Shown one piece after another: positions 154 through 5,394 of a DNA stretch of 34,234 nucleotides. The notes under the pieces were generated by a model. That model made no database searches, was not told where the DNA came from, and saw nothing but the letters and a program-made list of their open reading frames with translations. The position numbers and the translations under genes were made by a program. Position 1 is the first letter of the stretch, and the number at the start of each line of letters is the position of its first letter. The DNA is from Kiritimatiellia bacterium (GTDB lineage Bacteria; Verrucomicrobiota; Kiritimatiellia; RFP12; UBA1067), in contig JAHBAE010000056.1 in NCBI GenBank assembly GCA_018384485.1, positions 1 to 34,234 on the forward strand, given 5' to 3'.

Positions 154-195
154 CTCCCAGTTTTTCGTGGAGGGTTTCCACAAGGAAAACGGGAG
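154..195 (+). promoter_or_regulatory. 5'-leader stem-loop of rplU mRNA (candidate ribosomal-protein leader)
   Basis: CTCCC-a-GTTTTTC-GTGGA-(gggtt)-TCCAC-aa-GGAAAAC-GGGAG; 17 bp (one G-U) with two small bulges; sits at the predicted TSS and ends just before the SD. Confidence 0.6.
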
Positions 196-2568: not shown

Positions 2569-5394
2569 ATGGATATTTCGATAAAAAAAGCGTCGGTCCA
2601 CAATCTCAAGGGGATTGATGTCGTAATTCCTCGGAATTCCCTCACTGTCGTGACGGGGCTTTCCGGGAGCGGCAAGTCGTCTCTTGCGTTCGATACTCTC
2701 TATGCCGAGGGTCAGCGGCGTTATGTGGAATCACTCTCGGCTTACGCCCGTCAGTTTCTTGAACGGATGCAAAAGCCTGACGTCGAAAAGATCGAAGGGC
2801 TTTCACCTGCAATTTCTATCGAGCAGCACACTACTAGCGGCAATCCTCGTTCAATTGTCGCGACGGTGACGGAGATACACGATTATTTGCGAATACTCTA
2901 CGGCTCTGTCGCCGTGGCGCACTGCCCACACTGCGGCAAGGCCGTTTCACGGCAGTCGGCTGAGCAGATCGTGGACGCGCTTCTCGCCGAAGGTGAAGGA
3001 CGCAAGATTATATATGCGCCTGTTGTTGCGGGCAAGAAGGGACGGCACGAATCTGTTTTTGAGATGCTCGGCCGCGCCGGTTTTGCGCGCGTGAGAGTTG
3101 ATGGGCAGATGTATCCGATAGAGGAAGCCCCCGCGCTCGACAAAAAGAAAGCGCATACGATTGATGTGGTTGTCGACCGCCTTTCCTTCCCGTGCGACAA
3201 AACGCGCCTTTCCGATTCTGTAGAGCTCGCGCTCAAGACGGGCAAGGGAGTCCTTTTTGTGGAAACGCTCAGCCAGGACGGCGCTCCTTCAAGGATGCGC
3301 TCGTTTTCCGAGCTTAACGCCTGCGTTGATTGCGGCATCTCGTTCGATGAGTTGCGTCCGCGTTCGTTCTCCTTCAATTCTCCGTTTGGAGCGTGCCCTA
3401 CATGCGCAGGGCTTGGGCAGCTTTACTATTTCGATGAAGATCTCGTTGTCCCCGATAAATCGCTCCCTCTGCGCGAATGCATCCACCCGTGGCGGCGCGC
3501 GGGGCATAACGCGATAATGTATTACAATGCTCTTCTCGAGCAGATTGCCAAGCAGTACAATGTGAAGCTCTCCACGCCTTACGAGAAGCTGCCCGCCTCA
3601 TTCCGCCGAGGCCTCATGCACGGCTTTAAGGATGATCTTGTCCTTCCCTGGCGCAGCGTCGACAGGCCTTTCGAGGGTGTGCTTGCCGTTCTTCAAAAGC
3701 GCCTTGAAGAGGCGGAGGACGAGGAGACGCGCGCTAAGTACGAATCGTATCAGAGCGACCGCACGTGTCCTGATTGCCGCGGTGCGAGGCTTAATGAATT
3801 CTCGCGTGCCGCGAAAGTCTGCGGCAAGACTCTCGTCGAAGTTATGCAAATGCCTGTGACGGAGGCGCTTGCGTTTTTTGTGGCGCTTGAGAAAGGGCAG
3901 TTTTCTAATGACTTCGATTATGCCCGCGCGAAGATGGAAGGGCTTAAAGATGTAGTTGCGGAAATAATCCGCCGCTTGCAATTCCTTCTTGATGTAGGGC
4001 TTGATTATCTTACGCTCTCGCGGCCTTCGGCTACGCTTTCCGGCGGCGAGATGCAGCGCATTCGCCTTGCAACGCAAATCGGTTCGGGGCTGACCGGCGT
4101 TCTTTACGTTCTCGATGAGCCTACGATCGGGCTGCACCCTAGGGATAACGAGAGGCTCATTTCCGCGCTCAAGGGGCTGCGCGACCGCGGCAATACAGTC
4201 GTTGTCGTGGAGCACGATGAAGAGATGATGCGCGCCGCTGATTACATTGTCGACCTCGGCCCCGGCGCAGGGCGCGAAGGCGGGCGCTTGATGTATCAAG
4301 GGCCTTTTGAGGGGCTTTTGGGTTGCAGCTCGCTGACAGCCGATTATCTTGCCCACCGCAAGAGCGTTGTGCCGGAGAATCTCAAGGTAAGACATCTCCA
4401 GCCGCCCGGAAAAGGAGCGTATCTTTCCGTTCACGGTGCAGCGGGGCACAACCTTAAAAATGTGACGGCGCATTTCCCCGTCGGTGCGTTTACCGTTGTC
4501 ACGGGTGTGTCGGGCTCGGGCAAGTCAACACTCGTCGACGAGACTTTAAAGCGCGCTCTCATGCGCAAGTTTTATAATTCAAAGGAGCGGCCTGAGAAAT
4601 ATCTGCGAATTTCAGGCGCTGAAAATTTCGACAAGATAATCGAGATCGATCAGTCGCCCATCGGCCGCACCCCGCGTTCCAATCCTGCAACTTACGTGGG
4701 CTTTTTCTCGGAGATTCGCTCGCTTATGGCGATGACGGAAGAGGCGAAGGCTCGCGGCTATGCGGCGGGAAGGTTTTCCTTTAACGTAAAAGGCGGGCGT
4801 TGTGAAGTCTGCGGCGGCGACGGCGTGCAGAAGCTTGAGATGAGTTTTCTTCCCGATGTTTACGTCAAATGCGATCAATGCGGCGGGCGCAGGTTCAATT
4901 CTGAAACGCTTGAAGTGACTTACAACGGAAAGAGCATTGCCGACATTCTCGACATGACGGTTTCGGAGGCGTGCGCGTTTTTTGCGAAGGTTCCGTCTCT
5001 TGCGCGCAAGTTGAAGACGCTCGAAGATGTGGGGCTTGGGTATATCGGCCTAGGGCAGCCGGCCACAACTCTTTCAGGCGGCGAGGCGCAGCGCATTAAA
5101 CTTTCGACTGAGCTTTCGCGCCGCTCAACAGGGAGGACGTTATACCTTCTTGACGAGCCTACCACAGGGCTTCACTTCGATGATGTCGCAAAGCTGATGA
5201 AGATTCTTCTTTCGCTTCGCGATCAAGGCAATACGGTCATCGTCATCGAGCATAACATCGACGTTATGAAGTGCGCCGACTGGATTGTTGATATGGGGCC
5301 TGGCGGCGGCGATGGCGGTGGGCGCGTAGTGTGCGAAGGGCCTATTGAAAAAATCCGCGCCTGCAAGGAATCGTTTACCGGGCGGTTTATCTGA
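2569..5394 (+). CDS. uvrA: UvrABC excinuclease subunit A
   Basis: [35 protein letters not shown], two ABC signature motifs, CxxC zinc motifs; ATG at 2569 ([17 protein letters not shown]) preferred over TTG at 2539. Confidence 0.97.

Follow-up and report, generated by a model that had tools for sequence, protein, structure and literature searches.

Ribosomal protein leaders and the rplU-rpmA operon

One known way in which ribosomal proteins (r-proteins) are regulated is through leaders that respond to r-proteins (PMC10931766). Directly before rplU, which encodes r-protein L21, a structured RNA is annotated in Bacillus (PMC4342826), and a prediction for Shewanella lists a structured rplU leader, with no detail given (PMC2659441). 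The Firmicutes element, RF00559 (L21_leader), occupies this position in Bacillus and Peptoniphilus, is 77 nt long, and carries the conserved sequences CAACCGCAC...GGCGAGUCUUA. The rplU-rpmA operon of Escherichia coli, with the gene pair and gene order found in the window described below, is reported to lack feedback by its products, being unresponsive to an excess of them (PMC10931766, citing Aseev 2016); on that report, L21 autoregulation is not universal. The leaders associated with L10, L13, L19 and L20, together with the 20 new candidates of Eckert et al. 2020 (PMC7247131), are 5' UTR cis-elements of r-protein operons that combine a conserved structure with a conserved irregular core. The main text of the latter study is silent on L21, Kiritimatiellae, Lentisphaerae and Verrucomicrobia, and no r-protein leader in this lineage was found in the literature searched.

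The window analyzed here is the whole 34,234-nucleotide stretch of contig JAHBAE010000056.1 (assembly GCA_018384485.1) from a Kiritimatiellia bacterium. The host genome comprises 1.82 Mb in 117 contigs, and most of its close relatives in GTDB are Kiritimatiellae from the guts of ruminants. By Pfam, the gene order is L21, L27, then Rho. The first gene, rplU (bL21, 104 aa; PF00829, E 5.5e-30), spans 210-524, and the second gene of the operon, rpmA (bL27; PF01016, E 4.5e-32), spans 538-771. A sigma-70-type promoter at 119-148 consists of a -35 TTGACA at 119-124, an 18-nt spacer and a -10 TATACT at 143-148, matching 11 of 12 positions. These features, like the hairpin and Shine-Dalgarno (SD) sequence described below, are on the plus strand. 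Between rpmA and rho, at 811-860, is a strong hairpin (MFE -30.5 kcal/mol, z -4.5) with no clean U run, which may be an operon terminator or a rho-leader element.

A bulged hairpin between the promoter and the Shine-Dalgarno sequence

Directly downstream of the promoter is a candidate rplU (L21) leader hairpin, at 153-196. The original prediction described a stem at 154-195 with 17 pairs, one of them G-U, interrupted by a 1-nt and a 2-nt bulge and ending just before the rplU SD. Sequence and RNAfold bear out both the structure and its position: the 17 nested pairs form an outer stem (C154-C158 with G191-G195), a 1-nt bulge (A159), a middle stem with a single wobble, U165.G185 (G160-C166 with G184-C190), a 2-nt bulge on the 3' side (A182-A183), an upper stem (G167-A171 with U177-C181) and a GGGUU loop (172-176). 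RNAfold adds G153.U196 at the base. The SD, AAAGGAAG, follows at 198-205, before the ATG at 210.

The predicted MFE of the hairpin is -22.2 kcal/mol, as against -13.9 +/- 2.65 in dinucleotide shuffles (z -3.14), with 2 of 200 shuffles equalling it. The z-score is only moderate for a single sequence, falling to -1.98 once more of the flanking sequence is included, and it is on comparative evidence, rather than on this measure, that the hairpin is judged to be beyond chance.

Three other readings of the region were rejected. An intrinsic terminator or attenuator does not fit, as no terminator-like site occurs in 1-1010 and the hairpin is followed by UGAAAGGAAG, with no U run. A switch in which the 5' strand pairs with the start region, AUGGAAGC, fails on comparison: changes in the 5' strand track those in its hairpin partner (as in L059, GCCGAUC/GGUCGGC), yet most members retain ATGGAAGCA, or something close to it, at the start of rplU. 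Finally, the AAGGA of the stem might be read as a hidden SD. The second bulge base, adjacent to GGA, is however not always A: 20 of 63 sequences have U or C there, so the conservation here is not for a second SD.

Conservation and covariation

A search of 115 genomes from the same family identified rplU in 102 of them, and more relatives were added from the genome collection. A simple anchor-and-pairing test on upstream regions found the hairpin in 75 of 78 distinct regions whose L21 is at least 73% identical; a 76th carrier (G032) was overlooked solely by the anchor pattern. Shuffled upstream regions passed the same test once in 3160 trials. Because sequences were picked partly by pairing, the percentage of paired cells among them is biased upward, and the covariation measures are less affected.

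The alignment A1, made with MAFFT, comprises 63 distinct sequences. Within it, both partners have changed in 12 of 16 pairs, and double-change cells number 159 (47 +/- 9 in shuffles). The covariation score of 0.431 compares with 0.157 after shuffling, a value of this size being reached in 0 of 500 shuffles, and all slid registers score far worse than the true pairing. RNAalifold, unaided, recovers the core of the same helix. A tree-based null in the manner of R-scape was also used, in which each column was evolved on its own along a tree inferred with FastTree from the rplU genes. Under this null, significance at E<0.05 is reached by eight structural pairs (4-54, 8-51, 9-50, 10-49, 11-48, 16-41, 18-39 and 19-38) and also by the upper-stem pair 21-36. 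Non-structural pairs score in a few cases as well; these link only columns 8, 16, 41 and 51, which co-segregate with a GUGG/GAGG split between genera.

Covariance models lead to the same place in the window. Model R1 matches 153-197 (E 1.4e-12), and no second copy above background was found in the bacterium's own genome. Model R2, trained solely on other genera (18 GAGG-type sequences), locates the hairpin as its sole match in the window (E 2.7e-7). The compensatory covariation that the original prediction would have required among relatives is thus present, and, on these alignments and models, the hairpin is a member of a conserved, covarying RNA family.

An invariant core

Most stem columns of A1 undergo 5 to 21 changes on the rplU tree. 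Eight columns never change (U13, C14, G15, G17, C42, A43, G45 and G46), corresponding in the window to U165, C166, G167, G169, C181, A182, G184 and G185. They form a core whose 5' side is U165 C166 G167 N168 G169 (165-169; columns 13-15 and 17, zero changes) and whose 3' side is C179 N180 C181, the bulge A182 N183, then G184 G185 (179-185; columns 40-46). In order, the core consists of a U.G wobble, a C-G pair, a 3'-side bulge A-N, and then G-C, N-N and G-C pairs. The wobble U165.G185 and the pair C166-G184 are invariant, as is the bulged A; the base next to it is A, U or C. The loop region, on the other hand, ranges from 5 to 20 nt among relatives. As aligned, the core looks like a recognition site and not merely part of a fold.

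This pattern bears on the idea that the inverted repeat is a DNA operator for a transcription factor. Its position immediately after the -10 box, which is +1 in most of the genomes, would suit an operator. The stem letters vary with compensation, however, the loop region is of no fixed length, a DNA palindrome would not contain an invariant U.G wobble, and the element is retained where the promoter is gone; the probability of an operator is close to negligible.

Relation to known leader families

Searching Rfam, as had been suggested with the original prediction, produced no family match to the hairpin, even at lax thresholds of cmscan. RF00559 was absent by cmscan from both the window and its relatives; two Peptoniphilus controls scored 36.7 bits (L100) and 35.7 bits (L101). 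Conversely, model R1 does not match the Firmicutes L21 leader. The two elements are alike in being structured RNAs directly before rplU, but unlike in sequence and architecture. Compared with the r-protein leaders as a group, including those for L10, L13, L19 and L20, the Kiritimatiellae element is much simpler, consisting of one bulged hairpin. It has two features of r-protein leaders, namely a compensatory structure and a 5' UTR position specifically before an r-protein gene. Given the lack of an RF00559 match, the silence of the main text of PMC7247131 on L21 and on this phylum, and the lack of detail in PMC2659441, we therefore class the hairpin as a new family of RNA that belongs to a known type, most likely the r-protein leaders.

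Distribution and genomic context

Across the 115 family genomes, R1 gives a single strong match per genome, and in essentially every case this match lies 12-25 nt upstream of rplU. In G090, whose copy lies at the end of a contig, the initial codons of rplU follow it. In G050, two copies of hairpin plus rplU occur about 2.1 kb apart (C152:1029-1249 and 3168-3538), one rplU match spanning only the first 54 residues of L21; this is possibly a duplication or an assembly artefact. The sole other match below 0.01 in the family genomes that is not before rplU precedes a guaB-like gene in G071 (E 0.0016), and was judged to be due to chance; a TATAAT box lies inside its loop. At E<=1, R1 has matches in 8 of the 19 genera of the family; that in g9 is weak (E 0.69), leaving seven genera with convincing matches. 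Beyond the family, neither the order nor the phylum gave a convincing R1 match, and inspection by eye likewise found no similar hairpin in relatives from the order's other families.

Among relatives, 57 of 67 distinct cases have a promoter at a similar distance that ends a few bases before the hairpin, which thus begins at or near the predicted transcription start. Other arrangements also occur. In four genomes (L008, L014, L016 and L024), the hairpin separates rplI (L9) from rplU and lies 2-5 nt beyond the rplI stop codon, with no promoter between rplI and the hairpin. The identity of the upstream gene was established by Pfam on the L008 protein. The upper stem of the hairpin is longer in these four genomes. 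In two others (L054 and L068), the rplU leader starts about 11-13 nt after a tRNA-Ser gene, again with no promoter between, and the 5' end of the mRNA could be made by tRNA processing. The retention of the hairpin after rplI or tRNA genes points to selection on an RNA element that is independent of the promoter and the 5' end.

Stem-loops of the ompA type stabilize mRNAs at their 5' ends. The original prediction raised such a function, and a stem at the predicted +1, blocking 5'-end-dependent decay with no specific ligand, would suit both the stability of the hairpin and its predicted place at the start of most of these transcripts. Unlike ompA-type elements, however, the Kiritimatiellae hairpin has an invariant core and persists inside longer transcripts. 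A stabilizer needs only a stem, leaving the unchanging U.G, C-G, bulged A and G-C without a purpose, and the six genomes just described provide no promoter-defined 5' end. Because the hairpin is kept away from predicted 5' ends and its bulge and wobble bases never vary, stabilization is disfavoured as its sole function, and we consider it distinctly unlikely.

A positive role is a further alternative, in which the hairpin is a standby or spacer structure that aids ribosome loading, or a processing site, rather than a site for a repressor. It does adjoin an exposed SD, and in the two genomes with tRNA genes directly upstream processing would make the 5' end, but the invariant bulge core is unexplained unless a protein reads it. 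This alternative seems very improbable.

A possible L21 leader

The reading that we favour, with moderate confidence, is that the hairpin is a lineage-specific r-protein leader, probably bound by L21, which blocks rplU-rpmA translation. Of the original suggestion of a lineage-specific L21 leader, the conserved, structured rplU cis-element stands, on the basis of covariation, a single copy per genome, a position in nearly every case before rplU, and the invariant bulge core. From these features we infer a protein ligand, most plausibly L21, and repression at the level of translation.

In this model, the rplU-rpmA mRNA would carry, at its 5' end or close to it, a hairpin whose fixed core serves as a binding site and whose 3' edge abuts the rplU SD. 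An r-protein in excess over rRNA would bind the core and hinder loading of the 30S subunit, and synthesis of L21 (and L27) would fall; plentiful rRNA would titrate the protein off, and translation would go ahead. In most relatives an AAGG-type SD occurs at -14 to -11, and the last core pair is a median of 21 nt before the ATG. Both are inside the span covered by the 30S subunit. The SD is exposed in the predicted fold rather than sequestered, so that repression would need occlusion or entrapment.

L21, as the product of the first gene, would be the most likely binding protein. A leader of the same kind might instead respond to L27, L9 or a non-ribosomal RNA-binding protein. L27 is also encoded in the operon, and the L9 gene is upstream in some genomes. 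Regulators of r-protein leaders are, however, usually encoded in the operon, and L21, whose gene is first and always adjoins the element, would seem the better candidate. A ligand other than L21 is rather unlikely.

Leaders commonly, though not obligatorily, resemble the rRNA site of their protein. When the UCGNG / CNCANGG pattern was sought in the bacterium's own 23S rRNA, which is incomplete, only CCCAAGG was found, at about model position 1343, where the consensus does not pair the two strands with each other. Inspection of the 23S domain II consensus found no obvious copy of the core. The incomplete 23S thus yielded no convincing copy of the core that would speak for rRNA mimicry.

If the E. 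coli operon is not autoregulated, as reported, and given that the Firmicutes leader differs in structure, a minimal leader in Kiritimatiellae would suggest that control by L21 evolved more than once. We regard it as an evenly balanced question whether this is an independent invention of L21 autoregulation, in which L21 reads a minimal hairpin that is unrelated to the Firmicutes leader and belongs to an undescribed RNA family. A minimal leader of this sort would also offer a compact system in which to study RNA recognition by L21. The hairpin is a candidate r-protein leader, well defined and backed by covariation, from a rumen lineage without cultured members, and is small enough to be synthesized and tested at once.

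Other leader forms before rplU in the family

Other structures occupy the same place elsewhere in the family. Hairpins termed 'Type II', in genera g3, g5-g10, g16, g17 and g19, have 81.8% pairing; they are no more than a lead, as they have no consensus fold and their double-change pairs number 3, as against 2.8 expected by chance. Loci L157, L159-L164, L234, L236, L238 and L240, which are likewise from other genera of the family, carry a different leader that is strongly conserved in sequence, UUCGUUCCGG..AAGGUUUCCGGA..CGAAUUCCUCAUCGAUGAAGGA. In several of its members the SD GAAGGA can pair with UUCCUC, and covariation is weak. A third form, found in genus g2 (L123 and L144), is a simple hairpin, GCGUUUCG/CGAAACGC or GCGCUUCG/CGAGGCGU, enclosing a conserved GGAUAGACU loop.
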